A stretch of DNA of 64,000 bases from Antennarius striatus (Eukaryota; Chordata; Actinopteri; Lophiiformes; Antennariidae): assembly GCF_040054535.1 (NCBI RefSeq), contig NC_090782.1, positions 25,355,001 through 25,419,000 of the forward strand, given 5' to 3'. Shown piece by piece: positions 22,049 to 64,000 of the stretch. The notes beneath the pieces are model-generated. The model saw only the letters and a program-made list of their open reading frames with translations. It had not been told where the DNA came from and made no database searches. Position numbers and translations under genes: made by a program. Position 1 is the stretch's first letter, and each line of letters starts with the position of its first letter.

Positions 22049-22577
22049 CAGGGGGGTCAAACTCATTTTTACCAAGAGCCACATCAGCATCACGGCTGTC
22101 CTCAAAGGGCCAGATGTAACTAATAAATGTAACTAAATGTAACTCAGTGTAATGTAACTAAATGTAACTACTCCTTAATGTAACTAATAAATGTAACTAA
22201 ATGTAACTCAGTGTAATGTAACTAAATGTAACTACTCCTTAATGTAACTAATAAATGTAACTAAATGTAACTCAATGTAATGTAACAAATGTAACTACTC
22301 CTTAAAGTTAAATAACTTATTTATGACTTATTCAAGTTACAAACATTTCAGTTTGTAACTTGAAAAATTATGTTTGCTTGTTCTGTTGTAACATCAAACA
22401 CAAGTGAGGACATTAACTTTGTTCACAACGTGTTTGTCAGTTACAATACATTTAATTACTGCATTGTGGGAAATGTAGTTTATTTTTAGACACTCTGACC
22501 TTTTATGCTCTTGCGGGCCACATAAAATGATCCGGTGGGCCACGTTTGGCCCCCGGGCCTTGAGTCTGACACGTGTG
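22049..22577 (+). mobile_element. Non-autonomous hAT-type element with 64-bp repeats
   Basis: Begins CAGGGGGGTCAAACTCATTTT-like and ends with the matching inverted end GAGTCTGACACGTGTG. Subterminal text AAAGGGCCAGATGTAACT and CGGGCCACATAAAATGAT is typical of a fish hAT family. Inside are about two and a half copies of a 64-base minisatellite built from TAATGTAACTAA blocks. A related copy lies at 37435-38313 in reverse orientation with many more units. Confidence 0.7.
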
Positions 22578-37434: not shown

Positions 37435-38313
37435 TGTCAAACTCAAGGCCTGGGGGCCAAATGTGGCCCGCCACATCATTTTATGTGGCCCGCAAGAGCG
37501 TGTCTAAAAATAGATAGGTCAAGTTTGCTTTGTTTGTTTTTTCTGTCTAACTGTAATGTTTGGAACTAGAATAAGTCAGAAATTCATTTATTTAACATTA
37601 AGGAGTAGTTACATTTAGTTACATTACACTGAGTTACATTTAGTTACATTTATTAGTTACATTAAGGAGTAGTTACATTTAGTTACATTACACTGAGTTA
37701 CATTTAGTTACATTTATTAGTTACATTAAGGAGTAGTTACATTTAGTTACATTACACTGAGTTACATTTAGTTACATTTATTAGTTACATTAAGGAGTAG
37801 TTACATTTAGTTACATTACACTGAGTTACATTTAGTTACATTTATTAGTTACATTAAGGAGTAGTTACATTTAGTTACATTACACTGAGTTACATTTAGT
37901 TACATTTATTAGTTACATTAAGGAGTAGTTACATTTAGTTACTTTACACTGAGTTACATTTAGTTACATTTATTAGTTACATTAAGGAGTAGTTACATTT
38001 AGTTACATTACACTGAGTTACATTTAGTTACATTTATTAGTTACATTAAGGAGTAGTTACATTTAGTTACATTACACTGAGTTACATTTAGTTACATTTA
38101 TTAGTTACATTAAGGAGTAGTTACATTTAGTTACATTTATTAGTTACATTAAGGAGTAGTTACATTTAGTTACATTACACTGAGTTACATTTAGTTACAT
38201 TTATTAGTTACATTAAGGAGTAGTTACATTACACTGAGTTACATTTAGTTACATTTATTAGTTACATCTGGCCCTTTGAACACAGCCGTTATGCTGATGT
38301 GGACCTTGATCCC
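37435..38313 (-). mobile_element. hAT-type element expanded by a 64-bp minisatellite
   Basis: Reverse-oriented relative of 22049-22577. Its terminal part GTGTCAAACTCAAGGCC lies on the left. The other end near 38265-38313 (TCTGGCCCTTTGAACACAGC) is decayed. Between 37600 and 38270 it holds about ten copies of a 64-base unit, spaced exactly 64 bases at 37600, 37664 and 37728. Some units are shortened near 38130 and 38230. Confidence 0.75.
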
Positions 38314-39521: not shown

Positions 39522-41631
39522 ATGGCCGCCATCAGCAGCTCAAACACAGCTTTCGCCCTGGAGCTTCTCCGGACTCTGAGTCAGGAGAATCCCAGTGGGA
39601 ACGTGTTCGTGTCTCCTCTGAGCATCAGCTCAGCCATGGCTATGGTTCACCTGGGAGCCAAAGGGAACACGGCCACCCAGATGGCTCAGGTAAACGCCGT
39701 CCGTCACTAGAGGTCCGTCATCAGCAGAACAAACTACAGGAACCAATCCCGGCTGCAGCTCCGACCAGAGCTGCACCTGGCTTCATGGAACACCTGTAGA
39801 TGCTGGTCCACCTGGATTAGATCTCTGAACACAACAAGGATCCACAGACAGAAGTCGTGTCACTGACAGAACAGCCCTTTAGTTTCTATTTCTAGCCTCA
39901 AACAAACGTTAAATGTGTTTAATATGGTTCATGTCAGATGGAAAAATAGATCTTTGGTGTAGAAGTAGGTGAGTAGAATTACCTACCTACCTACCACCAC
40001 CTGTTGGTGTGGAGAGTTATGTCCACTTTCCCTGTGCAGAATGTATTAATGTATTAAACGGTCTTTAAACGAACCTTTTGGTCCAGTTTTTGACAAAGAT
40101 AAATCTCATACACAGAATCAGGACCAGAGAAAGCAGCACCACATGTCCAGCTGTCTAGGAACAGTATTCTAACCCGTGTTGCCACCAACAGATGTGAATC
40201 TATCCTCACACAGGCCCTATCGTTTGGTGAAGGCGTCCACGCAGACTTTAAGGCTCTGAATGCCGTCATCAACTCGCCGTCTGCGTCGTACATCCTGAAA
40301 CTAGCCAACCGTCTCTACGGAGAAAACTCTGCCAAATTCCTCCAGGTGAGGGTTCACATCACGGACGATGGGATGGAATCGATGACTTGGTACGACTGAG
40401 CTGATGTGATTTGCTGTGTGCAGAACTTCCTGGACGCCACGCAGAAGTACTACAGCGCCGACCTGAAGACGGTTGACTTTGTCGGGGCTCCGGAGGCGTG
40501 CCGAGGAGAAATCAACAGCTGGGTGGAGAAGCAGACAGAAAGTGAGGATGTCCATTTGAACTGGACACAGAATGATCGTTATAGAAGCTCATAAAGCACT
40601 AATCAGGAATCTGTTCTGTGTATTTCCTTTAAGATAAGATTAAAGACCTCCTGAAGCCAGGATCGGTCACCACCATGACCAGACTGGCTCTGGTGAACGC
40701 CATCTACTTCAAGGGAAACTGGCAAAACCGTTTTGATGAGGCAAACACCAAAGAGATGCCTTTTAAAGTCAATCAGGTGACTGAAGACAGGTGATGTAGA
40801 CACACGCTGTAGTCCCACTCTGAAAGCAGAGTCTCTGATCTGATGGCCCAACGTTTCCTGTCCATCAGAATGAGAGCAGACCTGTCAAGATGATGTACCA
40901 GATGAAGAAGCTGCCCTACAACTACATCCCTGAGTTCAGCCTGCAAGTCCTGGAGCTGCCCTACGTGAAGGAGGAGCTCAGCATGTTCATCCTGCTGCCA
41001 GAGGAGTCCAACCAAGGCGCCGACCCTCTGAAAAAGGTGTGAAACCCAAGGAGGAAAGTTCTCTCATGAACAGATTAGTAGACAGGGCAGGAGGTAGTGT
41101 CTGAAGCTCTTGGGAACATATAGAACAATAAATAAAAGTAACTGTGATAGTTTTCATGATGTCCGTAGCGCTCCAGTAGGACTTGATGCTGTGGAACAAA
41201 CAGGGTTTTGTGTTTGGTTCCAGCTGGAGAAAGAGCTGACGCAGGAGAGGCTGGACGAGTGGACCAAGAGGGACAACATGGACACCCAGTCAGACGTCCT
41301 GGTGCACCTGCCCAAATTCAAGCTGGAGGAAGACTACCAGTTAAATGATCCTCTGTCCAGACTGGGCATGACCGACGTGTTCGACGTCTCTAAGGCCGAT
41401 CTGTCTGGCATGAACGGCGAGGGGGGGCTCTTCCTCTCCACGGTGGCTCACAAGGCCTTTGTGGAGGTGAATGAGGAGGGGACCGAGGCGGCTGCAGCCA
41501 CAGCAGGCATCGTATCATTCTGTATGTTGAGGGAGGAGCACTTCACAGCAGACCACCCCTTCCTCTTCTTCATCAGGCACAATAAGAGCAAGTCCATCCT
41601 CTTCCTCGGCAGGTTCTCGTCTCCTCAGTAG
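39522..41631 (+). CDS. serpinb1: Clade B serpin, leukocyte elastase inhibitor type
   Basis: Intracellular serine protease inhibitor of the ov-serpin group. Six coding exons: 39522..39689, 40214..40345, 40424..40541, 40634..40776, 40869..41036, 41224..41631, 378 residues in all, the usual length, with the standard clade B exon pattern and no signal peptide. Visible family landmarks are [42 protein letters not shown] and [14 protein letters not shown]. The hinge [12 protein letters not shown] is intact, so the inhibitory loop insertion should work. The reactive loop reads [13 protein letters not shown]. By analogy with mammalian SERPINB1, Cys343 would be P1 and Met344 P1', preceded by Phe, predicting inhibition of neutrophil elastase, cathepsin G and chymotrypsin-like enzymes. 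The ATG lies 21 bases after an acceptor at 39500, so a non-coding leader exon exists upstream. Its 3' UTR sequence recurs at 56950. Confidence 0.95.
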
Positions 41632-41727
41632 ACAGAGCCCACAGAGGAAGATGCGGCAGTCATTAAAGTAGAACATGTACAAAGTCGTGAATGACTTTAC
41701 TGGTGATGCTTTTTGCTGTTGCCCTGA

Positions 41728-41733
41728 AATAAA
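41728..41733 (+). terminator. Serpin polyadenylation signal
   Basis: AATAAA about 100 bases after the serpin TAG. The surrounding 3' UTR (41632-41765) is repeated, interrupted by a mobile element, at 56954-57000 and 58634-58735. Confidence 0.8.
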
Positions 41734-42177
41734 TCATTAATGAATGATTGTGAGTTGTTTGGGTTGGATTAATGTGTTATAAATAATACAGAAGAAAATA
41801 AATAAATAGAAGAGATAATATTAATGAATCAGAGACGAAATGTCTTAAATTACGAACATTATGATAGTTTTGGGTTCGTTATATCTCCCCGTTATGAAGT
41901 TTCTTCCAGTTAATTCTCAGGTGTTTCTCGGCTGTTCAATCAGAGCAGAAAGATTCTCTGGTCGTCAGGTGACAACCCGGAAGTCCACAACGTGACGTGT
42001 TAATGTAAAAGTTTGAGGTTGTAAGAGAAATAGCGATCAGTGAATAATCATCCCTTTTCTTTTTTTATATTACTTTAAAACATAATACTATTTTAATACT
42101 ATAAATTAATACTATAAATTCACAATCCAAACGCAAATATCCCGGGTATCGAACATTTAATTATATTTTATTTTGAA

Positions 42178-42428
42178 GGCGCTCACCGGAAGTGCATCAA
42201 ACTAGTCTTCCTTTAGGTAACTAGTGCTGCTGAACTACTGAACGCGTCTGTGGGACTTGGAATTGTTTTAGTGAACTAACGCGACACTGAGGTGAATATT
42301 CGTAAAGTTAAAAGGTGTTTGTGGAGCTTAACCCGCTGTTAGCTGCTGCTAGCTGGCATTAGCTTTGGCTAATAGCGTTAGCTTCTCTGTCTGACATCGG
42401 CCGAACCCTCATTTACCTGTGGGGACAG
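42178..42428 (+). promoter_or_regulatory. Duplicate of the gfus promoter and non-coding exon 1, facing right
   Basis: Over about 265 bases it differs from the gfus copy (55080-55345, minus) by two substitutions and one 10-base indel. ETS site and splice donor are both intact. It faces the coiled-coil gene at 46070, but no transcript is proven. Confidence 0.6.
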
Positions 42429-42780
42429 GTAAGTTAACATGCTGGCTGTATGTTGACAGAGTTTGTCTTCTAGTTTGTTTTGGGAGTTAATAAAATATAT
42501 TGATCGAGTAAAATCTATTTTTTAACCATTTACAGCATCGCAGAGGATTATACGTCTTTAATCTTGATGAAATCAAAGTATGATATTTTGATATTTTACC
42601 ACTTCCGGTCGAAACAACATGTTAACACCTGGGAAAAGTAGTTCAATAAGTTTGATTAAGGTGAATAAATTTTTTAAATGATTAATTATAATTTATCATG
42701 TATAGAAAACTCAAAAAGTAAGTAAATTATTATTTGTTAATCATTTGTCTATTGTTAAAAGTGTTGTTAAAATCATCCAA

Positions 42781-43371
42781 GAAGGTGGAGGATTTAGAGT
42801 ACTTAGGGTCAACAGTCCAGAGCAATGGAGAGTGTGGAAAAGAGGTGAAGAAGCGTGTCCAGGCAGGATGGAACGGGTGGAGGAAAGTGTCAGGTGTGAT
42901 GTGTGATAGAAGAGTTTCAGCTAAAATGAAAGGAAAGGTGTACAAAACTGTGGTGAGACCAGCAATGTTGTTTGGTCTAGAGACAGTGTCCCTGAGGAAA
43001 AGACAGGAGACAGAGCTGGAGGTAGCAGAGATGAAGATGCTGAGTGTTGTGTCCGAGTGGGGAGCACGTATACATACAAGGAGGTGGAGAGTGAAGTGCT
43101 AAACATTAAAATTATATTTATTTTTTCTGCTGCATCAGGTACACCAGGTTGGAAATCTGCATCTCTATCATTACCAAAGGTCCTGGAATGGGGGCACTCT
43201 AACATTATATAGCCCCCGCCTAAACACAAGGCATTATGGGAAGGGTAGTTTTTTAAAAATATCTATACACAACACTGAGGTTCTCTCTGGGAGTGACCAG
43301 GAAGGATAGGATCAGGAATGAGTCCAGTGGCGACCCCTGAAGGGAAAAGCCGAAAGGAGAAGAAGAATCAT
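42781..43371 (+). mobile_element. 3' fragment of an RTE-like LINE, itself interrupted
   Basis: Encodes the reverse-transcriptase C-terminal part: LEYLGSTVQSNGECGKEVKK, RVQAGWNGWRKVSGVM, KGKVYKTVVRPAMLFGLET. It then breaks at about 43097-43255 (unrelated insert) and resumes with SLGVTRKDRIRNE and the 3' tail GTGGCGACCCCTGAAGGGAA. Truncated and not functional. Confidence 0.75.
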
Positions 43372-43779
43372 TTTTCTGTCATAACAATGCTTCTTGGAGA
43401 TGAATCTTATATCATTGATGATTGAACTTTGACCTCAAGGCACTTGTGGGATCAGCTTTGGGGTGCTGTTTGTACCAGAGTGACCGACCCACCACAGACG
43501 CTGGTTGAAGAATGGGATGCGACCCCACAGCAGTGTGTGACCGGCTGGTGACCAGCATGAGGCGACCTTCCTGCAGTCCAAAATTCTGGTCATCAGGAAC
43601 ATCAAGGAAGTGGACAAATATGAATGAACGTCAAATCAGGACTCTGAGGTATGATGTGTTAAACTACACACAACGATGACACAATCTGAAAGAACGGGTT
43701 CATCTCCATCAGAAGGCGTTATTGATCATACAAAGATTGCTGACTACAAAACCCTGGAAATGAGACCATTTCAGTACAC

Positions 43780-44300
43780 CGACCAGTGACGTGCTGAGGC
43801 ACAGCCTCACCTGCCATCAAAAAAGAGGAAAATGGAAAATGGAAAAAATAAATTAAATGTTTATATTTATCCACTGATGGGTATTATATAGTTATTTTCC
43901 ATTTAACTTCACCAAGTTTACATTATTACTGGTGGGCTTGGAGGAGAAGGTCCACAGTGGATGGGCTGTGTAGAATTTGAGTTTATATCCAAACATCACC
44001 AGACTTGGTAGAATCACATCCCTGAATCACATCGCCACTTCGCCATAGGCGAAGTAAATTCCAGATTGGCTACAAGGTTTTTGGCCTGTGTAGCCACAGT
44101 GGCGTTCTTATTTTTACGGAAAATAGGCTAAAACTTACAACTTTTTCGCCCGCTAGTGCCGCTCGCTAGCGCCGCTCGCTAGCGCCGCTCACTAGCGCAG
44201 CTCACTAGCGCCGCTCACTAGCGCCGCTCACTACCGCCGCTATTTCCGCATGCCGACGGAAATAGCCGAAGTGACCCGAAAGCTCCCGATCATTAAATAT
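43780..44300. repeat. Dispersed repeat remnants and a 13-bp tandem array
   Basis: A segment beginning GACGTGCTGAGGCACAGCC resembles a common fish transposon end. At 44157-44243 lie about six copies of a 13-base unit CGCTCACTAGCGC, itself partly palindromic. No gene is seen. Confidence 0.5.
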
Positions 44301-45074
44301 GCACTCGGGTCATGACCTCCTCTCGTCCAATGAAAAACAAAAAGATTCTTTTTTTACAAGCTAAACCCGTGAATTGGTGTAAGACAAGGCGAGGACCATC
44401 GATCTAAATAAATTAAGAATCCTGTGTTATATTGTAGAGTTTATGTTAAAATTCCAATTGAACAACAAATGGTGAATGCTGAGAGGGGGTGGGGGGGACA
44501 GACCGATCAGAAGGTCAATGAAAGATATTATCAATACTTGTTAGTAGTCTTAGACTTTTGTTCCCTCTGACCAGCAGGAATAACCAGCGATGATGTAAAT
44601 GTGTTTTCACCTCGCTTGATGTTTTATGTCTTTTTAAATTGAAATGAGAAATCATGTTATTGAATTAAAATAACTAAACTAAACTAAACTCTGTCATACC
44701 AATGGTGTTGGTGGTGGTCAAAGTTAAATGGCTTCTAGTCTCAGTAAACTACCAGTAAACACTGAGTAATATTTAGTCTGACTGTATCTTCAGAGTGAAT
44801 GAAGTTTTCAATGGTTGAATCTCACATTCATTCCTGCATCAAGTAGGACAGAAATAAAGAGAGTTCAGCTCCAGCTGCTGGCTTTAGGGGGTTTATGGAG
44901 GGAAACTGAACACAAGATTTTGTCCTCAGAATGCAGGAAAACAACCACATTTTCTAAAACATTTCCCGGGGGAGGCCCCCTGTACCCGCCCTGTGGGGGG
45001 GTATCCCCCTACGCCCCCCCCCCCCCCCCTGTGACAAGTATTGTTCGTCAGCGCGCTTCGCCGCTGTCTTGGAC

Positions 45075-45580
45075 ACAGAATGTGGCTTTTTGTGGCTTAC
45101 TCAATTCTCTTACACTGAGCAACAGTGGCTTAATCACACAGACTCCTAGTGCAAGCCCAGCATACCACAGTGCTACTTTAATTGATAACATATTCACCAA
45201 TGAATCCGAAAATAATACAGTGAACAGACTATTAATCAATGATATTAGTGACCACCTACCAGCATTTGCAGTTTATAATATCAAACACCTGAGAAGTCAG
45301 CCAGAGAGAAACCTAAACTACAGACGAGTGAGGACAGAGGAAACTATTAATGCATTAAAGAATAATGTATTGGCACAAAATTGGGACGATGTATATGAGA
45401 GTGACATTGATGGTGCTGATTAAGCTTTCTTAGGAATATTAATGTCATTGTATGTATAAGAATCAACCATGGTTTACAAAGGGATTACAAAATGCCTGTA
45501 AAAAGAAAAATACACTAAATAGAGAATTCATGAAACAAAAATTAAAGAAGCTGAAAATTTAAAAAAAAATAATTACAACC
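45075..45580 (+). mobile_element. LINE fragment (L2/CR1-like)
   Basis: The frame contains HSATLIDNIFTNESENN and DISDHLPAFAVYN, the typical junction between endonuclease and reverse transcriptase in L2/CR1-type LINEs. A stop at 45421-45423 is followed by decayed frame-shifted LINE text. Truncated at both ends. Confidence 0.7.
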
Positions 45581-45594
45581 AAGGCAGTAACAGA

Positions 45595-45985
45595 CTGCAA
45601 CATCCCGCGACACCCCTGAATTCAAAATGTTACCCTGACCTACTTGCATAGGTCAAAGATCAAAGCTAGTGCTCTGACCTACTGTCATGGATCAAAGCAC
45701 AAGGTTTGATCTACGGTCTTACTCACACTGGCTTCCCTCGTTTTTCTATTTATCCGGTTCCTGAGTGTACAAAACTTTAAATTTGACCGTGACCTAGTTT
45801 TCTCAAGGTCAAGGTCATCATCTCATTTTCATCCCCTTTGCTGCCTGAGTCATGTGGTTTTTGTTTCATCTTTCTATCTGTAACGGTTGTGAAGATATTT
45901 GGTGGACGAATGAACGAACAGACCGACGGACGAACGGACGAACACTGACAATTACAATACATCACTGCTTTGAAGCGCTGACATC
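45595..45985 (+). repeat. Dispersed repeat A, intact copy
   Basis: About 390 bases from GCAACATCCCGCGACACCCC to CAATACATCACTGCTTTG. The same repeat lies reversed in the gfus intron, split into 51117-51210 and 52675-52880 by a mariner-like insertion. It ends about 85 bases before the coiled-coil ATG. Confidence 0.75.
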
Positions 45986-46069
45986 AAAGCACGCAGTGAT
46001 GTTCTAGAGCCCATCAGACACTCTTGAGAGCCACAGAGAGACAGCAGTAACGAGGAAGAGAAGACAAAC

Positions 46070-46771
46070 ATGACCCACAAAGACGTGAACGACAAACTAT
46101 TGCAGGAGCAACTGAGGTGGGAGCTGACGGGAAGCTCGGTCCAGCTCTCTGAAGGCGCCCAGCTGGAAACCCTCAGTGAGATGTTCAGGAGGGCTCAGAC
46201 CAGCCTGGAGGAGCAGACGTCCTGCATCGCCGTCCTCCAAGCCCAGCTGGACAGGATCAAGGCCGTGAATGAAGGTCTTGAGAAAGATCTACAGCAGGAG
46301 AGGGCCTCCTATGAGGCTCAGCTGGAGGACCAGCAGTACCAGATGGATGCTCTGGAGGCTGATCTGGATAAGGCTGAGGCTCATTTAGATGCCAGCTGGT
46401 TGTATTGGCAGCAGGAAAACATGTCTCTGCTGAAGCACACAGAGGAGCTGGAGAGGACCCTGAAGAAGACAGAGCAGGAGTCAGAGACCAACCAGAACCC
46501 GTGGAGGGAGAAGAAGAAGGAGAAGAAGTCAGAAACACACCAGGGTCAATGGAGGCAGGAGAAAATGTCTCTCTACCAGGAGATGGATGCTCTGAAGACC
46601 ACTCTAAAGCAGAAGGAGCAAGAGTGGGAAAACAAGGAGAAGGCCTTGACGTCCCAGCTGGAAGAACTTCAGGACAAGATCCAAAAGAAGAAGAGTGGAA
46701 AGAAGTGGTACAGGAGGCTGTTCTCCAGGTGCCCGATCTGGGATCAGGAACAGAGAATAATCTGGATCTGA
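46070..46771 (+). CDS. Intronless coiled-coil protein, function unknown
   Basis: One uninterrupted 233-residue frame, MTHKDVNDKLLQ to RRLFSRCPIWDQEQRIIWI. Residues about 45-215 are rich in Glu, Lys, Gln and Leu with heptad spacing (LQAQLDRIKAVNEGLEKDLQ; ALEADLDKAEAHLD; ALTSQLEELQDKIQKKK), predicting a long parallel coiled coil. Two Trp-containing repeats, NPWREKKKEKKSET and GQWRQEKMSLYQEM, suggest internal duplication. The tail is basic (KKKSGKKWYRRLFSR) and could bind membrane or nucleic acid. AATAAA follows at 46847. It could be a retrocopy or one of the fish single-exon coiled-coil genes. Codon use looks well kept and there is no stop. An acceptor-like TTCTAG at 46007 lies upstream. I do not recognise a named family. 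Confidence 0.65.
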   Translation: MTHKDVNDKLLQEQLRWELTGSSVQLSEGAQLETLSEMFRRAQTSLEEQTSCIAVLQAQLDRIKAVNEGLEKDLQQERASYEAQLEDQQYQMDALEADLDKAEAHLDASWLYWQQENMSLLKHTEELERTLKKTEQESETNQNPWREKKKEKKSETHQGQWRQEKMSLYQEMDALKTTLKQKEQEWENKEKALTSQLEELQDKIQKKKSGKKWYRRLFSRCPIWDQEQRIIWI

Positions 46772-46846
46772 AGGAACTGAATGGACCTTCAACCGCTGAA
46801 ATGTTCCAAATGTTTTCTCATGTAGGACTGAATCTGAAAAAATTAT

Positions 46847-46852
46847 AATAAA
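46847..46852 (+). terminator. Polyadenylation signal of the coiled-coil gene
   Basis: AATAAA 76 bases after the TGA of the coiled-coil frame. Confidence 0.65.
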
Positions 46853-47050
46853 AGTCTCTCAAAGGTCCTGTTTGTTGGGTTGTTTTCAGTAGCTAATGTC
46901 GTATTACAATTCTTTGTATTTTATATCATGGAATATTTATTTCTATGCATAAAAACAATCTGTTGGAAGTTAATTCCTCTACCGGTGCTGTGAGAGGATC
47001 ACAGCTGCCAACATTTGTGAGGATGGTGACACCTGAATCTTTGGGGTATG

Positions 47051-47230
47051 GGCCTACCTGGGCTGTGCAGGTGAGTCCATCAGATAAATCCACAAGAGGG
47101 CAGCAGAGACTCAGATATGTTGAGATAAAGTGACGTCTGGTTATTCTGCTGCGCTCCGCCAGGGTGGCGTTTGTATTTTCTAGACAGACACAACTCTTAA
47201 ATGTTTTACATCAATGTCTTTATTTCTGTG
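47051..47230 (+). pseudogene. Fragment duplicate of the exon/intron border at 56.5 kb
   Basis: From GGCCTACCTGGGCTGTGCAG and its GTGAGT donor onward, about 180 bases match the reverse complement of 56340-56543. That stretch includes CCACARGAGGGCAGCAGAGA and a decayed intron. The upstream coding part is not shared, so only the exon end and intron start were copied. Confidence 0.55.
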
Positions 47231-47316
47231 CTAATTTACCAAATCAAAGCAAATTCAACCAAAAATCATTTAAATACAAGTAATGTCAAACGGTGAAAGA
47301 TTTTCTGTGTATCTAC

Positions 47317-49165
47317 CAGGGCTTTGAACCGGTTCATTGAACGAAAACGAAAACCGGAAACTTTTGGTATTTTGGCAGGAACGAAAACGAAAACTTTATA
47401 TTTTTAAATGTTCTGGAACAGAATCGGAACAGAAAATAATGACCTGATGTTTGACCTCCTGTCCTTCACTGGAGGGGTGAGAGCAGAGGGAAGTAGTGGC
47501 TATCAGCAGCAGGTAAGAACAGGGAGGTCTCCCAGTCACCATTAATCATTACAGGTGAACACTCAGCGTGTCAGTCTGAACATGTATGATTTAGACATGA
47601 ACTCAGTGGCTGCAGTCATTTTCAGAGCAGTGTGTTCCCGTACTGCCAGCGCTTTGTAGTAATACTGAGCTATGGGAGAAGAACAATGAAGATCTGTTGT
47701 TCAGCAATAAATGACATGGTGGGAGTTATTCTGTTCTAATGTCATGTAGTGTCTAAGTAGGAGGCATAAGCCTGAACTACATGATATAACTGTCATAAAG
47801 CAGAGGTGTAGTGCTGTGGTTGTTTACTGGAGGGTGGGGGCATATCTATAATTATAGTCTATAGTATATAAACTAATTGCTTTAGTTGCCAATTTAAAAG
47901 CCCTTAACTTACCGTATTTTGCGCACCATTCAGCTCCTTGTATAAAGAGGCTCAGTCTAAATAACGGAGTTTATTTCCGTACTTTAACCGGACACACGGT
48001 GCACCTTTATCGGTGCATGCTAGCTAACAGAAGCAAAAAGGTGACTGGTTGGACTGTGTTGTACTACGTATTTAAATTTAAAAAAATACACCGACATTAT
48101 TTTTTAAATCTGTTTTTATTTTTTGATGTGTAGTAAATCCCTGAAGTCGTCTCCGGTCTGCATTGAATCTGTCGGTAGTTTCTCCACCGCTGACCGGCTG
48201 GTTTCCGGGGGTCTGTCCGGTAATGATGCGGCTTTAGAGAAACATCGGACAGAAGTCTGAGCAGACACGTTAGTCCAGGACCCACAATCCACCACCTGTT
48301 GGGGGGTGTAACTCCTCTGCACTGCCCCCAGTCCTGGTAAACCTGTGTTCACGTCTCTCATCCATCGCTCCATGACCCCCAGCTTCACTTTAAAGCCTCT
48401 GTTCACACCGATGTCCAGCAGGTGGAGGTCTTTCGTTGATCCTCCAGGATGAAGACAAGCTCCGAGTTCAGCCGCTTGACGTGTTTCTGACAGAAGCGGT
48501 GGTGTGGGGGGGGGCATGGAGTCACAGATCAAGAGAGATGGCGAAGCGTGAAAAAAGCCCCCCGGTCTCTTTACGTGAACCGGAACAACCGGAACTGATA
48601 GCCTGGAGTTTACGTGTTGTGTCGTAAGCGTGTCTCTACGCTGACGTCATCGTCGGGGGTCTTCAGCCAATCAGATGTGGTTACCAGCATACCTGCGGTC
48701 CAGTCCCGGTATCCCCCCCATACCGGTACCTACCGGAGGTGTGCCGGACGGAGCCTCGCGTCACGTCCTCTGATTGATCCATTGCTGCCGGCGTACGTAG
48801 TGACGTAATACGTCCTCTCGGTGGACAGTGGTCGGTCTGGAGGATCTCTGACTGACGTCACAGAAACATTTCTACAGATTGGTGAACTCAGTGAACACAG
48901 AAGACGCTTCATGTCAGAAGGAGCAGCGTTGGTTTCTGAGACATTTTAAGGCTTTTAAGCGCGTCTAATGGTGCGTAAAATACAGCACCTACATATTTAC
49001 TGTATATTTACAAGGAACGTTATTAACCGGTTCAGGAACTTTTTTTTTTTGTTCTAACCGGTTCAGGAACGTCAGTTTATTGGTGGAACACAAAACCGGA
49101 AATGTTATAATTCCCTTTCTGTTCGGAACGAACCGATTGGCAAAAAATTCTGGTTCAAAGCCCTG
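47317..49165. mobile_element. hAT element, 1.85 kb, with 8-bp target duplication
   Basis: Termini CAGGGCTTTGAACCGGTTC at the left and GGTTCAAAGCCCTG at the right are inverted copies. The flanks GTATCTAC (47309-47316) and GTATTTAG (49166-49173) agree at six of eight positions, as for an aged 8-base hAT target duplication. Subterminal repeats of GAACGAAAACGAAAAC and ACCGGTTCAGGAAC are present. The frame at 48116-48532 is not recognisable as transposase. It sits just beyond the gfus stop codon. Confidence 0.8.
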
Positions 49166-49410
49166 GTATTTAGTTTACGACTAGTTAAATGATTCCATCG
49201 TGCCACCACCTGAATTCAGCTTCACTGCAGTCCGTTTACGTTTCACACAAAACCACATCAGCAGAAAATAATCCTGTAACATAAAAGAGCGTCCGGACGG
49301 GAACGTCCAGCCTCGGCTCAAATGTCTCCCTTTCAAACCCTCTTCCCACACCAACGGAGCCAAGGGGTCATGGATCAACACACATCCTACCAGCTGGACA
49401 GGTTCACGTG

Positions 49411-54141
<4,731 letters not shown>

Positions 54142-54479
54142 CTAGAACAGCACATAGAGACACATCCAATGACATCCCAGCGTCGAGACGTCTGGAACCA
54201 AACCTCTCAGGTGGACCCAGCAGACGTTGATGACATCAGACAGAAGCTCAAACTGCTGATCGCAGCTCAGACTAGTTCGAACCATTTCAGGTCAGCCTGC
54301 CTCATTGTTCGGTGGATGACTCTTATTGTGGAACTGCATACCGGAGTGAAATGTTGGCTCAAACTAAGCAGTGAATCGAAATGTTTCCATTTAATCCGTG
54401 CGTCATCAGTTGGAACCAATCGAAACCTGCTTTTCTTGCTGAACAAGACGTCATTCATGAAAAGGATGTGTGTATAAAC

Positions 54480-55665
54480 CTAACATAAAGAGTAAAGAAA
54501 TCAGTGTTTGGTAATTATTTCTCTGTTGTAACAATGCTTCTTCGAGATAAATATTGCCAGTTGATTGATTTGACAACACTCCAGCCGGTCACACACTGCT
54601 GTGGGGTCGGATCCCATTCTACAACCGGCGTCTGTGGTTGTGTTGGTCATTGGTGCAAACAGCACCCCAAAGCTGATCCTACAAGTGTTTGATGGGGTTG
54701 AGGTCAAAGTTTAACCATCAATGATATAAGATTAATCTCCAAGAAGCATTGTCACAGCAGAGAAATAATTACCAAACACTAGTTTACTTACTCTTTATGT
54801 TAAGTTTTATATATAGAATAAATGGATAATTAATCATTAATGTTACTCATTTACTTTACTCACCTTAATCAAACTAATTGAACTACCTTTCCCAGATTTA
54901 ATTACGTTGTTTCAGCCCGAAATTGTAAAATACCAAAATATCATACTTTGATTTTATCAAGCTAAAACACGTTTAATTCTCTATCGTTTACCTGCAATAT
55001 TGTAAATGATTAAAAATAGAATTTATTTGATCAATATATTTTATTAACTCCCAAAACAAACTAGAAGACAAACTCTGTGAACATACAGCCAGCATGTTAA
55101 CTTACCTGTCCCCGCAGGTAAATGAGGGTTCGGCCAGAGAAGCTAACGCTATTAGCCAAAGCTAATGTCAGCTAGCAGCAGCTAACAGCGGGTTAAGCTC
55201 CACAAACACCTTTTAACTTTACGAATATTCACCTCAGTGTCGCGTTAGTTCACTAAAACAATTCCAAGTCCCACAGACGCGTTCAGTAGTTCAGCAGCAC
55301 TAGTTACCTAAAGGAAGACTAGTTTGATGCACTTCCGGTGAGCGCCTTCAAAATAAAATATTATAATTAAATGTTCGATACCCGGGATATTTGCGTTTGG
55401 ATTGTGAACTTTCTATGGTATTAAACAAATGTTTTAAGTAATATAAAAAAAGAAAAGGGATGATTATTCACTGATCGCTATTTCTCTTACAACCTCAAAC
55501 TTTTACATTAACACGTCACGTTGTGGACTTCCGGGTTGTCACCTGACGACCAGAGAATCTTTCTGCTCTGATTGAACAGCCGAGAAACACCTGAGAATTA
55601 ACTGGAAGAAACTTCGTAACGGGGAAATATAACGAACCCAAAACTATCATAATGTTTGCAATGTG
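54480..55665 (-). repeat. Promoter/exon module, copy 2 (gfus's own)
   Basis: Minus-strand copy of the module: CCCGGAAGT at 55527-55535, ACCGGAAGT at 55331-55339, exon 1 core 55106-55345, donor GTAAGT at 55100-55105. Its intron side runs to a 220-base element at 54533-54757 with inverted ends ACAATGCTTCTT, partly shared with copy 1 at 43385-43570. Confidence 0.85.
55106..55345 (-). promoter_or_regulatory. gfus promoter and non-coding exon 1
   Basis: An ETS-type ACCGGAAGTG site, CpG content and absence of a TATA box suggest a housekeeping start. The exon ends GGGGACAG at 55106, followed by GTAAGT, and would splice to the ATG-bearing exon at 54141. A CRE-like TGACGTG and a second CCGGAAGT lie near 55510-55535. 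The exact start site is not visible. Confidence 0.65.
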
Positions 55666-56045
55666 AGACCTTATCCATCCATCCATCCATCCATCCATCC
55701 ATCCTTCTCCTAGTGAATGCTCTTAACAGGAAAAGCTCAGGATAAAGATTAATTTAGTCATTAATTTTCTAAACCCTTTTTCCTGCTTCCGTGGGTCACA
55801 GGGGTTGCTAGAGCCCATCCTAATGGACATAGGCAGGGAGACGCTCCAAACACCTTGCCAGCGTGTCGCAGAGCAACACTCACGCCTGCAGACAACGTGG
55901 AACCGACCGATCCACCTGAAGTGTGTGTTTTTGGGAGGTGGGAGTGGGAGGAAACCTGAGAACGCAGAAAAAACCCACACAGACAGGGAAAACATACAAA
56001 CTTCACACAGAACACAGCGCCACCCATTGCGCCAATTATGCATGA
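55666..56045 (-). mobile_element. SINE ending in (ATCC)n
   Basis: Begins with ATCC repeats at 55676-55703 (the 3' end in SINE sense) and contains the reverse of the widespread fish SINE/LINE text, including AGGAAACCTGAGAACGCAG and AAACATACAAACTTCACACA. It abuts the left boundary of module copy 2. Confidence 0.65.
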
Positions 56046-56523
56046 CACATTAATAGAACCGGAACGACTAACAATCATTTATAGTGATTTATTGATGACA
56101 CTGTGATTAGCTGAGGTATGCATCACCTGCCTGAAGGGTTCAGGAAAAACACATTCTTGAGCCGTAGTCCAAGGGTTGCCATGTTTCAGCTGTAATCCTT
56201 CATGTTCGGGGGAGAAGATCTGATCTCCGACACACCTTTCTTCTCAAGAAGTTCATTCAACAGCGAGAAGCTCCATTTATGACTCAACAAATCAGCTGTG
56301 CAGCATCGGAAGGCTGATCAGACACTCACATCGCACTGAGCCCAACCTTCTGTTGATTTTTGTGCTGATTTGCCAAATATATTGATATAAAACACAAGTG
56401 TCGTGTCTGTCCAAAAAATAGAAACCCCATCATGATCGCCCACAGCAGAAGAACCAGACATCTGCCCGTCTCAACGTGTCCGGGTCTCTGCTGCCCTCTG
56501 GTGGATTTATGTGGTAGACTCAC

Positions 56524-56640
56524 CTGCACAGCCCAGGTAGGCCTGGATGGTGTGGAGCCTGTCCTCCACCTGGCTCTGCATGCTGTTCAGGTAGCACAGC
56601 AGGAGTTCCAGGGTGCTGTTCATGTACTCCAGTTGAACCA
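56524..56640 (-). pseudogene. Truncated exon of an unidentified gene
   Basis: The minus-strand frame encodes QLEYMNSTLELLLCYLNSMQ and then SQVEDRLHTIQAYLGCA, followed by an excellent donor (TGTGCAG|GTGAGT at 56523). Its 5' side is cut by a repeat tail with (TGAT)n at 56641. No other exon of the same gene is seen. A shorter duplicate of its 3' border lies at 47051-47230. Protein family not recognised; probably helical. It could be a last remnant of a duplicated gene. Confidence 0.45.
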
Positions 56641-56745
56641 TCAATCAATCAATCAATCAATCAAACTTTATTTATGAAGAGTAGCCCAAAGTGCTTTACA
56701 TAACAATACAAAAAGTTTACAGAAGAAATATCCCCCCTCATCCCC

Positions 56746-56785
<40 letters not shown>
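56641..56785. repeat. Retroelement tail with (TCAA)n and (CA)n
   Basis: TCAATCAATCAATCAA is followed by AACTTTATTTATGAAGAG and CAAAGTGCTTTACATAACAA, the usual 3' end of a fish retroelement in reverse, then a CA tract at 56743-56785. Confidence 0.6.
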
Positions 56786-56787
<2 letters not shown>

Positions 56788-56949
56788 TCGGTGGTACCGG
56801 GTCGTCTGGTCCTGGTACCAGGAACATTTGAGTTTTGAAGTTGATGTCCAAGAAAGACTTGCGCTGATATATTTTATTCCTTAAATTCCCTTAATCTTTC
56901 ATGTAAATGTGTAATATCGTGTTTGTTACTAGATGGGAAGACATCAAAC

Positions 56950-59900
56950 TAGACAGAGCCCACAGAGGAAGATCATGCAGTAATTAAAGTAGAAAATGTA
57001 TGTGGTACCTGGGGAGGAGGCAACCTCCCCTTGGTCCAACAACGCTACCTCCTGAGAATGGGCAGGAGGACCCATAAAACTTTTCTTTAGTGTGGCGTGG
57101 CTGACAATACTGTATATTTTCCTGCTAAGGGACAATTGAAAAGAGGCAGGTAAATATTCAAAATTTATTGCTGTAACCCCCCCAGACATCGCATTAAACC
57201 AGTTAAAAACAAGTTCCCTTAAATCATTCTCATGGAAGGCTGGTGGATTCTCCTTGGTCTAGGAAGGCCGGTCCCGCAGATGCGAGACCCCTGCTACGGA
57301 GGCCCCTGGTGAGACAAAGGTAAAAACACAAGCCCAACACCAACACAAAACATGCAATAAAAAAACCTCCACACTTAAAATCGAATAAAAACTATTGAAT
57401 ATCACACCGTGTTGAAATGGTTAAAAGTACACACCAATGATGTGTCCCACCAGTACAATCCCCCTACAAGATGCAGGCATCAGCGTAGGTCCGGCCTTGT
57501 ACAGTGAGTATCCTACATATCAAAGACAATTAGAGAGGAGAACCACCAGCATCGACAGCACCTTTTAAAAAAGATAAAATTCAGGAGAGCAACAAAGAAC
57601 AGAAAAGAAAGAAATTAAAAGTACAAATTCTTCCTAAAAAAACAGTGGCTGGCCCGGTCCCTTTAAGAAAAAACAACCACGTTAGATTTCAGCCTCAGTA
57701 AAACAATTTAACAAAAACAAACTCTGAACGTAACTAAAAGGTGTGGGCCTACTTTTTGGTCCACTCAGCTGTCCCACCACACCGTCGTGGTTCACGTTCT
57801 GTCGCTACCAAACAAACCAGCAATTTGACCAACATATCCCAATACGTATACATAAAATAGTCAATAAAAATGTGTATTTTAGTCATTTATCCGTGCATCC
57901 TGGCAGTTCAGGTCTCAATGAAGTAAATCATTGACAGATTTCATTGCTGAAGTCTGTGTCCTCCAAGAAATGACAACTATCCTGGTAAAATGAAAAAAAA
58001 AAAACCCCAGGCATTTAGAAAATCAAATGGCAGTGAGTAACATTCTACCATGAAGTACCTGCAGGCAGGTGAGCGCAGCTCCCAACCAGCGAACAGAAAA
58101 CACACCTGTGTCATGCTCTCCTATAATAAATAGAGACTGATTTAAACCGCGGTACACTGGCGTCGTGCCCGGAGTGTCCCCTGCCTCACGCCCTGAGACT
58201 GCCGGGATAGGCACCGGCTCCCCGCGACCTGCGTTAGCGGATTAAGCGGGTTGGAAGATGAATGAATTAAATGAATGATTTAAACCACAATGACCCATCC
58301 TCAACCTACATAATTTAACAGAGTCCCTTCGGGATAGAGAACTATAATGACATTTCCTATTGACTAGAGATTGAATAGAAAAGTAGTGCCTCCCCTTTCT
58401 GCCAATCCACTTGCCACTTTAATTATTCCTCTCAGTTCCACTCTTCCTAAAGGGAGGTGCTCTACAACTTGCTTATTTAAACTTTCTTTGGGTAAGCTGT
58501 CCACTTTCTCATTACCCTGTACAAGGAGAGTCTAATCCTCCAGTCAAACATTCATCACATCCTAACTGGACCCAACACAACGTGATCTGATGCAGCTCTG
58601 TTGTCTGCCTGCCTGTTTAGGTTCCCACATGTACTAAGTCACGAATGACTTTATTGATGATGCTTTTTACGGTTGACCCGAAATAAGAAATGTATAGCTT
58701 CACAAATCATCAATAAATGATTGTTTGGGTTGAAACCTTCTTTTCCCGGAAGTCCACAATGTGACGTGTGAATGTAAAATTTGAGGTTGTAAGATAAAAT
58801 AGCGATCTGTGAATAATCATCTCTTTGAATCCTTATCTTTCATTTATGTTACATTAATATTTTTGTATAATACTTAAAAAGTTCAGAATCCCGATGAAAA
58901 TAACGCGGGTATCGAAAACTTTATATTTTATTTTGAAGGCGCGTACCGGAAGTGCATCAAACTAGTCTTCCTTTAGGTAACTAGTGCTGCTGAACTACTG
59001 AACGCGTCTGTGGGACTTAGAATTGTTTTAGTGAACTAACGCGACACTGAGGTGAATATCCAGGAATTTAGCCGAACCCTAATTTACCTGCAGGTACAGG
59101 TAAGTCAACATGCTGGCTGTTAGTTCAGAGAGTGTTTTTTTTTCTTTTCTTTTGTTCTGCGAGTCATTTGAGTATATTGATCAAAATCTATTTTTTTTAC
59201 TTATTTGCAGCGTCGCAAGCAAATGATAGAGGATTAAACAGCTGCTTACTGTAAAATACCAGAGAGATGAAACCTGAGTATTGTGGAGGTTCGCAGGAAC
59301 GAGGCAAGGGTACAGGTGAGTTCAGTCTTCATTCACAAAGCGTGTCACGACAACCAACACAGTCCCTTTAAATATCGGTTCCCCTATCACACCCTTTAAC
59401 CCCGTGATTTCACACCTTCCTTGTGCCTGTCTGGTGTGAGACAGCTCTCCCAAGTGTCAACTACAGTATTTAATTAACTAATGATCGCACTCTTTCTTCT
59501 TATGTGTCATTTTTCATCAGATATTTTTCTAATAATTTGATGATATATTAAAAATGGACACAGAACAGAATGGAAGTAAAATCTAAATAGTTTCATAATT
59601 TCTTCTAATAAGTGACTGTCAGTCTGATGGTAGTGATAGTCATTAAATGTTGACTTCAAAGCAACGTCTGTATTTAATGAACATGAGTTTCTTCTTTAGT
59701 TGACTGAGTTTCATTAAACTCAGTCATACAAACAAATCCCTTTTGTGCGTTAATCATTTAAACGGTTCACTGTCCTGTTCAGTAAGAAAAACAGGTTTGG
59801 ATCTCTTTACTGACGCACAGACTGCATGGAAAGCAATTAGATTGTAGACAGTCTGGGGTTGGACCACAACAAACACTTTGACTCATCAGTCTGACGCAAA
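56950..59900 (+). repeat. Promoter/exon module, copy 3
   Basis: Starts with TAGACAGAGCCCACAGAGGA, identical to the serpin stop codon and first 3' UTR bases. It is interrupted at 57001-58629 by an LTR and resumes with the UTR at 58634. It has CCCGGAAGT at 58745, ACCGGAAGT at 58945 and the exon core to 59099 with GTAAGT donor, but about 100 bases inside the exon are missing. Downstream it matches copy 4 to at least 59700. Confidence 0.8.
57001..58629. mobile_element. Solo LTR inserted in module copy 3
   Basis: The block opens TGTGGTACC and closes TTCCCACA, giving TG...CA ends with the inverted termini TGTGG/CCACA. It is flanked by TGTA at 56997-57000 and 58630-58633. No protein frame is present over 1629 bases, so it looks like a solo LTR. 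A SINE tail piece at about 58147-58290 lies inside. Confidence 0.65.
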
Positions 59901-60289
59901 TCCACAAGAAAATCATCCACAGACCTGAGAAGGAAGTGATTCAAACTATTATCAACTGCGATCAGCAACTTGATCGCCTGATGTCATCGAACGCCACTAG
60001 ACATCAAAATATTTTGTTCCAAATTCCAGGCGTCTATTAGTCTGTTTCTAACAGGCGGTTTCTGTGCCTGCTGCTCTAAATGCTAATGAGCTCCGTCTGT
60101 TACACGCCCACTTACCTGGGGAGAGGCGGGGCTAAATAAATCACTCCTGTGGTTATGTCACAGAGCTGAGTTTGATCAGTTTGTTGGAGCTCTGTGTCAC
60201 CAAAAATCAAGGTTCTGTTGTTTTACTCAACTTTATGTCTGTTGGCCACAAATAGTGGACGAGTAAAATCACCAGAAAGCCATTAATAG

Positions 60290-61131
60290 CGCATAATATC
60301 ATGTTACTGTACAATAAATCAGAATAATATGATTATATTAAAATTAGCATGTATAGTTCCAATATCTACCGTTAAGCGTCACTCGTGATTCATTCGATTG
60401 TTTGAATTGAGATAAGTTTACGTGGGGTAAGCTTTTGCTCTATATACAGGTAGTCCTCAAGATATGAACATTTGACTCATGAAAATTCAGAGATACAAAC
60501 AAATGTGTTTCACCATATCTGATTATTATCCTGCAGTTCTCTTTTCTGCCACAACCTCCGCAGGGCAGCACCGCTGAGTTGTCGCAGCTCCAACGCTCGT
60601 CTCCCTGTTGTTGTTGTTTGTTGTTGTCTCTGTTAGCATCTCAGAGCGTCAGGCTTCCTACATCATTGGATACTTTACTGTTTATCATGGATGAATAGTG
60701 AAGATAGTGGTAGTGACCATGTCACTGATGACAACTCTGATTCTGACCCACAATAACTCCTCGTCCTCTTCCTTCACTCTAAGGTTAAGCTACATGCTAC
60801 AGTAGCGTACAGTGGATCGTCACCATCAACAGCTGACTTTAAAGCTAAGCTACATGCTACAATAGTGTACAGCGGATCATCAACAGTTGACTCTGACTTT
60901 TGTTGATGATCTTAAAAACTGGTGGAGAGTTCCTTGAAGTCTTTTATTCTTCATCTCCTTAAGGATTAAATTATGAGCATCAAAGTTTACAGTGAACTAA
61001 TCTGGATTTAAACAGTCCCTTGAATTGTGAGTCACGCTTAATGGTAGATACTGGAACTATACGTACATATTTTAAAACATGTTTTTATTCTCATTTTATT
61101 CGCATTTATTGTACAGTAACATGATATTGCG
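60290..61131. mobile_element. DNA element with about 120-bp terminal inverted repeats
   Basis: The left arm 60290-60410 and right arm 61011-61131 are inverted copies, sharing AATATCATGTTACTGTACAA and, further in, TATAGTTCCARTATCTACC. Between them is a direct duplication of a block with AAGCTACATGCTACARTAG (60785-60900). No transposase is visible. Confidence 0.75.
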
Positions 61132-61499
61132 ATGCCCAGTACTGTAGACTGTTATGGTGTCTTTGCCCTGAGCGTTGGGCGGCTCATGTGTTGGGCTGTG
61201 GGAAGTTCACAAGACTTGGGAAAAGGGAATGGGAGTTCGTTAGTGATGAGCGGGAGTTGTGTCTGTTTAGAGCTTCTGTGTAAAGAGATGAAGGCTGATG
61301 AAGTGTGTGTTCGAGTTCCATCTCTGCTGTTGTTAAAGTTAATGCTCATAGTCTAACAATATTATGTTCTTTAATGGGTTTTTTTTTGAAGAGTCCAACA
61401 TTTGTGGTGAACAGACCACAGTCGAGTGAAATGACATAAACTTGATTGTTATTTTACTGTATAATTTTTTTGGTTCACCACAGATTTCCCAATGACTGG

Positions 61500-61805
61500 C
61501 ATTCATATTGAGAACAAGGAATTAAGATATAAGAACAGATGTTTACCATCCCTTGTGTTTTGTCTCATACTTTGTACTGTACTGTCTGATGCACTGTCTG
61601 TGTTGTCCTGTCTGTGTTGTACTGTCTGTTGTACTGTCTGTTGTACTGCCTGTTGTACTGTCTGTTGTACTGTCTGTTGTACTGCCTGTTGTACTGCCTG
61701 TTGTCCTGTCTGTTTACCGTGGGTCAGAGAGGACTGCAATTTCATCTGTGCTGTATGTCGTGTATATATGGTACACTTGACAATAAAGCTGACTTTGACT
61801 TGAGA
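61500..61805 (+). mobile_element. Retroelement 3' end with 12-bp tandem repeat
   Basis: At 61590-61712 a 12-base unit TGTACTGTCTGT/TGTACTGCCTGT is repeated. It is followed by a tail ending CACTTGACAATAAAGCTGAC, similar to the tail of the SINE at 63451-63779. Confidence 0.55.
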
Positions 61806-61834
61806 TTAAAATAATAATAACGGAATCATTTCAG

Positions 61835-63960
61835 GACAAAATGTCTCGCATTGCAAACACAATGCTTAGTTTTGGATCCATGGCATTCCACCTTCATGAT
61901 GAGGCAACCTGTCAGATGTTCTATCCGCTGCTGAAGCAGATCCATCTATTCATTCTACTGAAGACGAGTTTTTCCGCCTTGCAGGTCACGGGTCTGCTGG
62001 AGCCAATCACAGCTGGATAAAGGCGAGAGGCGGGGTCAGTCCGGTACGTAGCTAGCGTATCCGGGGCCGTTATGTGACAATCCGGAAGTCCGGCATTTTG
62101 CGTGTGAACGTAAAGGTTCGAGGTTGTAAAATAAATATCGTTTGGTGTATATCACACCTTAAAAATTCTCTTTCATTTAAATTACCTTAATAATTTTCTA
62201 TAATACTTGAAAACGTTCAGAATTCCAATGCAAGCAACTCAGGTATCGAATACGTAATTATATTTGTATTGTTTATTTTGAAGGCGCTCACCGGAAGTGC
62301 ATCAAACTAGTCTGTTCCTTTAGGTAACTAGTGCTGCTGAACTACCGAACGCGTCTGTGGAACTTAGAGTTGTTTTAGTGAACTAACGCGACACTGAGGA
62401 GAATATTCGTAAACTAAACGGTGTTCGAGAAGCTTAAACCGCTGTTAGCGGCTACAGCTTTGGCTAATAGCGTTAGCTTCTCTGTCTGACATCGGCCGAA
62501 CCCTCATTTACCTGCGGGTAGAGGTAAGTTAACATGCTGGCTGTTAGTTTAGAGAGTTTGTCTTCTAGTTTGTTTGTTAATATAATGTATTGATCAAGTG
62601 AAGTGTGTATTTTACCCAATATAAGCATCGCAGGAAAGTCAAAACAAGAATCGAGCAGCTGTTTATTGTAAATACAGGACAGAAATGAAATCTGAGTAAT
62701 GAACTCGATGTGAAATGTTTTCTGGGTAACATTTCTTCTAACTGAACGAGATGAGGTTTGATCTCTAAATGCATCCTGATGAGGCGGATCCTACTCTTGT
62801 TACTTTGGTGTCTTTTTTTCATCGAGTATTTTTTCCCCATAATTTGATAATGTATTAAAAATGGACACAGGACAGAATGGAAATAAAATGGAAATAGACG
62901 TTTTATACTAATTTTCTCGAATAAGTGATCGTCCGTCTGACAGCTGTCAGATATTTTTCATTAAATGTGGACTTCAGAGCTACGTCTATTTAATGAACAT
63001 GATGAGTTCCTGCTTTACTTCCTCTGATCGTTTTGTCCAGATTGAACATTCTGGAAGAATCATTTTTGACTCAGAAGTTAAGTAAGAACTCAACACCCAG
63101 GTCGGCTGGACACCCGGGTCGACTGTCTGCCCCCTTTGAAACAGCCTCACAGTTTCCCCTCCTGATGGCTGCAGGTGAAGAAACCACCTGTAGCTGTCCC
63201 ACCCGTCGCCCTCCGCTTCTGCATGTCCCATCGGCATCGTCCTGATGCCCTAAAACAGTCCACTCTGTCTGGACTGGTTCATCACCTGACCGGTTAAACA
63301 TGCTTGTCCAGTTCTGACCCACTGACATTCTCTAAGTGTCATTTCCAGGAAGACTAAATCCAATAACCACTGATATGAACTTTCAATATGGTATTTTGGT
63401 ATTTTACCACTAAAACAATGAAATCTGGCAGAAGTTAGTTTGATAATTTTCGGACGGCACGGTGGCGTACTGGTTAGCACTGCTGCCTCACGGCAAAAAG
63501 GTCAGGGGTTCAAACCCCATCATTTCCAACATGGCCTTTCTGTGAAGAGTTTGCATGTTCTCTCCGTGTCTGAATGGGTTTCCTCCGGGTTCTCCGGATT
63601 CCCCCCATTATCAGGAAAAATACGCATCAAGAGAATATTAGGTCATGTTGGACCATAGTGGCGGCGCGCCCAGGGTGCAGCGGCTCTGGACCAACCATCC
63701 ATCTGGCCTTGAAATTTCGTTGTACCGTCCCTGTGTGTGTATAATGACAAATAAAGAAAGTTTGACTTTTTTTTATTTTTTGATAATTTTTTGATAAAAG
63801 TCAGTGTTGTAAATGAGTCCTTTTTTATGATTCTCTATTTTCGAGGTGCTTACTTCTTTAGTAGGTAAAGCAGGTATTTGACTTGCTCATATTGATGACA
63901 CACGGACTGAATGTTAAGAAAACAGGTTTGTGGAGGAAACCTGGGGGTAGGAAAGTCAAA
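61835..63960 (+). repeat. Promoter/exon module, copy 4
   Basis: Begins with AAATGTCTCGCATTGCAAAC, as copy 2 ends. It holds TCCGGAAGT at 62081, ACCGGAAGT at 62290 and exon core to 62523 with GTAAG donor. A SINE-tail insert sits at about 61935-62050. The downstream part matches copy 3 with an offset near 3340 bases. It may continue past the right edge. Confidence 0.8.
63451..63779 (+). mobile_element. tRNA-headed SINE with target duplication
   Basis: Head with box A-like TGGTTAGCACTG and box B-like GGTTCAAACCCC, body with GCATGTTCTCTCCGTGTCTG, tail ending AATGACAAATAAAGAAAG and a T-run. Flanked by TTGATAATTTT at 63440-63450 and again at 63780-63790. Inserted into module copy 4. Confidence 0.8.
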
Positions 63961-64000
63961 AATAGTTTTCTCGGCTTTTGACTTTGGTATGCAGTTCCAC

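Follow-up and report, generated by a model that had tools for sequence, protein, structure and literature searches.

In Arabis alpina, a partial tandem duplication of PEP1 took in the proximal promoter together with exon 1 and a part of intron 1, and splicing of both exon 1 copies to one shared exon 2 has been shown (PMC3527215). Promoter capture by segmental duplication is also already known, as described for NPEPPS and TBC1D3 (PMC12871316). The locus analysed here lies in a stretch of 64,000 nucleotides of the Antennarius striatus genome (hereafter the window; contig C7, NC_090782.1, positions 25355001-25419000, in an assembly of 548 Mb), where the 5' end of gfus, the gene for GDP-L-fucose synthase, occurs in four copies next to a serpin gene. 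The four copies, designated A42, B55, C58 and D62, fairly probably arose through local tandem and inverted duplications of the serpin-gfus boundary, with B55 and D62 driving genes of their own (gfus1 and gfus2, respectively), C58 being a possible first exon of gfus2, A42 a relic, and D62 the oldest copy. All positions are those of the window; the 29 kb beyond its end were also examined and are numbered in continued window coordinates.

Four gfus 5' ends and the sequence behind them

Unit A42 (41839-42760, plus strand, as delimited by blastn against B55) comprised a promoter region, a non-coding exon 1 and the first part of intron 1. Unit B55 (54749-55672, minus strand) comprised the promoter region, exon 1 and intron 1 start of gfus1, and unit D62 (62065-62701, plus strand) the same parts of gfus2, while unit C58 (58745-59293, plus strand) consisted of a promoter region, a shortened exon 1 and the start of intron 1. 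All of them contained AGTGCATCAAACTAGTCT (42191, 58951 and 62296 on the plus strand; 55316 on the minus strand), GTAACTAGTGCTGCTGAAC (42217, 58977 and 62324; 55289 on the minus strand) and ATGCTGGCTG (42439, 59110 and 62534; 55086 on the minus strand). Each copy also had two CCGGAAGT sites oriented with the copy (41977/42186, 58746/58946 and 62082/62291 on the plus strand; 55527/55331 on the minus strand), which we take to be sites of the ETS-factor type, and A42 possessed an additional CCGGAAGT in reverse at 42601. The GTAAGT donor was intact in all four copies, the last base of exon 1 being 42428 in A42, 55106 in B55, 59099 in C58 and 62523 in D62. The preliminary description of this DNA had reported four such segments, each with a ready-made splice donor; all four were found where it had placed them, and the three junctions it gave (42428, 59099 and 62523) matched.

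The four segments are long collinear duplicates and not short motif coincidences. In the self-comparison of the window, A42 and B55 were 87% identical over 951 collinear columns, A42 and D62 79% identical over 599 columns, and A42 and C58 84% identical over 339 columns plus 75% over 151, with comparable values for the remaining pairs. A 22-bp pattern taken from the core, allowing up to 3 mismatches, had 4 matches in the window and none in 100 shuffles. Copy number was low and local, with four places found in the 548 Mb, all inside 22 kb: the segment 42000-42700 gave 5 rows against the whole assembly, all at the four known places (C58 as two pieces), and 23 bp of the core, at most 3 mismatches being allowed, had 4 matches (reversed control: 0). 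The whole-assembly searches did not reveal the many unlinked copies of a dispersed repeat family, and a genome-wide repeat, named beforehand as the outcome that would overturn the claim, was rejected. The window had no Rfam match at gathering scores, and the unit was rejected as a described RNA family on that basis; the core had 0 matches in IMG/VR and 0 in prokaryote contigs, collections from which records of the genome itself are possibly excluded.

Behind B55, coding exons 2-10 of gfus1 (49411-54141, minus strand) encoded 324 amino acids with frame and splice sites intact. The earlier claim that only this copy leads into gfus did not hold, as D62 heads a second complete gene, gfus2, with nine coding exons (64540-68732 in continued coordinates, plus strand) and likewise 324 amino acids. 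Since these exons begin 540 bases beyond the window end, the second gene could not have been known from the window alone; the window ends within intron 1 of D62 (63853-64000, plus strand), which matched gfus1 intron 1 at 54447-54328. When spliced at GT/AG borders, both genes gave open reading frames 975 bases long (324 codons plus the stop codon), differing at 40 of the 975 coding bases and at 22 amino acids, with a nonsynonymous divergence (dN) of 0.032 and a synonymous divergence (dS) of 0.082. The best matches of both were PDB GDP-L-fucose synthase chains, including 4e5y, presumably the human protein, at 524.7 bits for gfus1 and 544.2 bits for gfus2. The three orphan promoters proposed earlier are thereby reduced to at most two, A42 and C58, of which C58 points into gfus2.

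Downstream of C58, the 3' end of intron 1 was retained as far as the site of the gfus start codon (59753-60082, plus strand): 59753-59993 matched gfus1 intron 1 at 54467-54225 (E 5e-15), and the local alignment continued to 60082/54139, ending on the ATG. The acceptor of this copy was broken, with AA instead of AG at 60078-60079, and gfus exon 2 was not detected behind it in 60001-62080 (25 of 100 shuffles attained the best score, 27). In A42, about 600 bp of other sequence between 42760 and 43366 was followed by a continuation of intron 1 (43366-43548, plus strand, matching gfus1 intron 1 at 54770-54581). After this inserted stretch, gfus similarity stopped at 43548, still within intron 1, and no gfus exon 2 was found in 43549-46000 or 43549-49000, where 64 and 18 of 100 shuffles, respectively, did as well as the best local score. 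A42, C58 and D62 were therefore all collinear with gfus1 past the first exon, with similarity in intron 1 that extended to the ATG in C58 and through the full gene in D62. A42 is convergent with gfus1.

A further stretch behind A42 (45674-45975), matching gfus1 intron 6 at 52857-52661 and 51213-51103, was considered as remains of the gfus body and rejected; it is rather a dispersed repeat, because a locus on C8 also matches it at 80-87%. A self-complementary stretch in gfus1 intron 1 (54476-54807), resembling a miniature inverted-repeat transposable element, is partly present in A42 (43366-43548), where the similarity between A42 and B55 stops.

Duplication of the serpin-gfus boundary and putative roles of the copies

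The last exon and 3' end of a serpin gene lay directly upstream of A42 (41221-41787, plus strand; coding to 41628, stop codon at 41629-41631; Pfam Serpin 2.9e-48). Upstream of C58, two pieces of this 3' end were found, at 58627-58686 (plus strand), matching 41673-41732 (85% of 60), and at 56950-57000, matching 41629-41679 (90% of 51). Upstream of B55, 56035-56093 (minus strand) was a copy of 41728-41787, that is, the end of the serpin 3' region and the sequence just beyond it (80% over 60 columns, E 3e-8). As serpin 3'-end pieces stand upstream of three of the copies (A42, B55 and C58), the duplicated block is placed at the serpin-gfus boundary. It would have consisted of the serpin 3' end together with the gfus promoter region, the non-coding exon 1 and intron 1, and was probably multiplied on the spot by successive tandem and inverted duplications, at least one of which would have included the whole gene.

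Differences in the flanks group A42 with B55 (20 of 298), then C58 (59-61 of 291-302 against A42 or B55), and place D62 outermost (82-89 of 295-308 against the rest). Among the 20 comparable sites that differ between gfus1 and gfus2, gfus2 alone agreed with 4e5y at 10, gfus1 alone at 3 and neither at 7, the 10-to-3 count being not significant (binomial p 0.09); sites 118 and 175 are among the places where gfus2 agrees with 4e5y and gfus1 differs. Downstream of gfus2, open reading frames (ORFs) were present at 76.3 kb, with an F420_oxidored-type NAD domain, and at 83.6 kb, with an EF1_GNE domain, as expected for pycr3 and eef1d, neighbours of human GFUS. D62 may represent the ancestral site and the oldest copy.

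An exon-like piece, LEYMNSTLELLLCYLNSMQSQVEDRLHTIQAYLGCA, was observed at 56475-56643 near B55 and again downstream of gfus2 (70720-70888 in continued coordinates), with 91% identical DNA. A shorter version was located at 47051-47111, and the piece had no Pfam match. Given its presence both near B55 and downstream of gfus2, the duplications seem to include sequence 3' of gfus2.

Concerning function, each unit can be regarded as a putative promoter producing exon 1, which would then be spliced to a downstream acceptor. B55 and D62 are most likely the ordinary promoters of gfus1 and gfus2, and A42 is most likely an idle relic without product. C58 shares its strand with D62, from which it lies 3.3 kb upstream, and has an intact donor and no working acceptor of its own. 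Because D62 exon 1, being a first exon, has no acceptor, the nearest gene-derived acceptor downstream of C58 is that of gfus2 exon 2 (64540), which makes C58 a possible alternative, distal first exon for gfus2. A layout of tandem first exons is present, with donors after 59099 (C58) and 62523 (D62), both upstream of gfus2 exon 2.

Core conservation and competing explanations

The units shared a conserved 119-bp core, made up of the second CCGGAAGT site and the sequence after it (42181-42299, plus strand, in A42). The six pairs of copies differed at 0, 3, 3, 5, 5 and 6 of its 119 positions (95-100% identity), with a 2-base insertion in D62, whereas the control flanks differed at 20 of 298 (A42-B55) up to 89 of 307 positions (B55-D62), i.e. 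7-29%. The contrast between core and flank gave Fisher p values of 0.0016 for A42-B55 and at most 6.4e-7 for the other five pairs, with core borders that were picked after the alignment was seen and tests that take sites as independent. In total, 112 of the 119 core columns were invariant across the four copies; for the gap-free columns (105 of 110 invariant), none of 10,000 shuffles of 10-column blocks reached 105, the best shuffle having 104. Of the CpG sites occurring in at least one copy, those common to all four amounted to 5 of 7 in the core, 2 of 6 near the first site, 3 of 9 from there to the second site and none of 7 in the intron. Changes specific to D62 were also rarer in the core (4/119) than in the upstream and intron sequence (29/230; one-sided p 0.003), and the donor block was conserved among the copies (45-50 of 51).

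Several observations, besides the non-significant agreement count with 4e5y, weigh against the proposed series of duplications and the roles assigned to its products. The similarity comparison revealed no serpin sequence upstream of D62, so that how the history began is a matter of conjecture. About 90 alignment columns are absent from the middle of C58 exon 1. Changes specific to C58 numbered 2/119 in the core, 4/128 between the sites, 0/54 at the first site and 13/102 in the intron; the core value differed from upstream plus intron (one-sided Fisher p 0.018) and from all flanks (p 0.047), and the low rate of C58 is not limited to the core, given the values between the sites and at the first site. 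In addition, 13 AG sites in 59100-64600 scored at least 4 (the best, at 59211, reaching 9.4), above the gfus2 exon 2 acceptor (2.6), and the C58 donor therefore has other possible partners; these scores come from a rough acceptor matrix, under which six of the nine gfus2 acceptors were scored (-0.9 to 2.8), two of the six falling below zero. Finally, for both gfus genes the joining of exon 1 to exon 2 is itself deduced from sequence.

A tenable alternative, given somewhat less than even credence, is that A42 and C58 are both dead relics whose core and exon 1 identity results from gene conversion and not from use. Gene conversion seems to be at work between gfus1 and gfus2. With approximate exon borders, identity between the two genes was 91/92 in intron 2, 90/90 in intron 3, 71/74 in intron 9 and 219/224 in the exon 8-9 interval, including about 55 coding bases of exon 9; it was intermediate in introns 4 and 5 (58/66 and 64/70, respectively) and low in intron 7 (52/71). 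Over most of intron 1 it was 0.42-0.72 per 60-base bin, partly in non-homologous DNA. The tracts in introns 2, 3 and 9 and in the exon 8-9 interval are conversion-like and speak for this alternative, as does a plateau between B55 and D62 around exon 1 (55380-55021; 0.87-0.93 per bin) that continues about 85 bp beyond the donor into the intron. However, the same 119 bp would have to be favoured in all six pairs, the neighbouring upstream stretch is only 67-79% identical in the five pairs that involve C58 or D62, and the donor block was kept as well. Core conservation fits use of the copies, but conversion could also have kept the cores alike.

At the other extreme, C58 and A42 would both be live promoters under selection, with gfus2 fed by tandem, near-identical cores and gfus genes having repeatedly gained 5' ends, which is considered rather unlikely. 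If it were true, the supply of GDP-fucose may have been tuned repeatedly through additional start sites. A more distant, third gfus gene was identified on C16 (C16:10026778-10029746, minus strand; matched stretches 60-74% identical to gfus2), and its 5' end contained a partial duplication in tandem, which covers an exon-like stretch with a donor (AAGACAG, then GTAAGGAG), an intron and the beginning of exon 2, in blocks 72-77% identical. With the C7 cluster, additional 5' ends thus occur at two gfus loci in the same genome. A shared core in the 5 kb upstream of the C16 gene was rejected, the best local score (24) being reached by 93 of 100 shuffles.

The preliminary description had further suggested that orphan promoters with a ready donor could capture downstream exons and seed new transcripts. 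For A42 and C58 this is judged quite improbable, and no positive evidence for it was obtained: the candidate ORF behind A42 has no convincing acceptor, the C58 acceptor is broken and exon 2 was undetected. D62, moreover, is not an orphan, since it heads gfus2. The idea draws on the intact donors of all four copies, on the promoter capture already known for NPEPPS and TBC1D3, and on an intact coiled-coil ORF of 233 amino acids (46070-46771, plus strand), the longest intact ORF examined there, which lies 3.6 kb downstream of A42 on the same strand. Compared with its nearest relative (C5:26358440-26359597), this ORF had a dN of 0.097 and a dS of 0.194 over 223 codons, a rough estimate, with the relative's codons in two frames, and some constraint on it is possible. 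AG sites downstream of the A42 donor, at 42536, 43139 and 44575, scored 5.0-7.8 and are possible acceptors.

The same ORF belongs to a dispersed family, the genome giving 32 matching rows, its own included and more than one at some places, and its similarity to the two nearest relatives starts at 45980-45981, about 90 bp before the ATG. The best AG in 45900-46075 scored -2.0, below the six scored gfus2 acceptors. Given the similarity before the ATG and the poor AG, the ORF probably came with its own 5' end, and its capture as an exon by A42 is not supported. It had no Pfam match above the cut-off. An origin as a retrocopy was also rejected: the two nearest relatives carry an extra 165 and 161 bases without GT...AG ends, and the nearest has a 427-amino-acid open frame around them, so that a deletion is likelier than the loss of an intron.

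An assembly artefact, in which haplotypes or false duplications would mimic copies, is very improbable, as the aligned blocks differ by 12-29%, gfus1 and gfus2 differ in their coding bases and in intron lengths, and all copies lie in one contig of 26,452,028 bases. Least credible of all is a mobile or repeat element carrying its own promoter, for which both orientations and apparent transposon debris (by eye) could be cited, since only four places were found in the assembly, all adjoining gfus or serpin sequence, and the outer ends are not alike between copies.

Other features were noted in the window. An element with inverted ends (CAGGGCTTTGAACCGG ... GTTCAAAGCCCTG), hAT-type-like by eye, occupied 47318-49160, with the coiled-coil ORF on one side and the gfus1 3' end on the other. 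Tandem arrays were present at 18187-18569, 37585-38267 and 22114-22353, the second with a period of about 63-64 bp and the third being related to it in inverse orientation. Protein kinase exons were found at 17361-17954 on the minus strand (Pkinase 2e-18); we take them to be of the myosin-light-chain-kinase type, MYLK4 and SERPINB1 presumably being neighbours in human.

Comparison with described systems

The cluster is a fresh example of a known process, the partial duplication of a gene nearby, perhaps accompanied by tandem first exons; no printed account of it was found in the literature searched, coverage of which excludes most subscription journals. The segmental duplication of NPEPPS that drives TBC1D3 is similar in that a duplicated promoter is placed to drive something else, and differs in that a fusion transcript was shown there, whereas no captured exon is identifiable in the gfus cluster (PMC12871316). 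Schistosoma japonicum genes with a similar core promoter and signal sequence resemble the cluster in having a 5' gene piece that was repeatedly copied, with repeats at its flanks; in contrast, they are dispersed genome-wide and expressed, whereas the gfus copies are four, local and known from sequence (PMC3434034).

The cluster nonetheless forms a compact natural series around the same core, with a pair of complete genes, a 5' end in the position of an additional first exon, and an orphan, and allows promoter decay, reuse and gene conversion to be compared within one genome. The likeness to PEP1 lies in two same-strand exon 1 copies upstream of one exon 2, here C58 and D62 before gfus2 exon 2. 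Splicing of both was shown for PEP1, whereas it is predicted for gfus2, where exon 1 is non-coding; the gfus cluster also differs in having two further copies, one of them inverted with a whole gene. The exon 1 of PEP1 is reportedly coding. If C58 is used, the cluster would represent a PEP1-like case in an animal metabolic gene; otherwise, it would be an ordinary local duplication.

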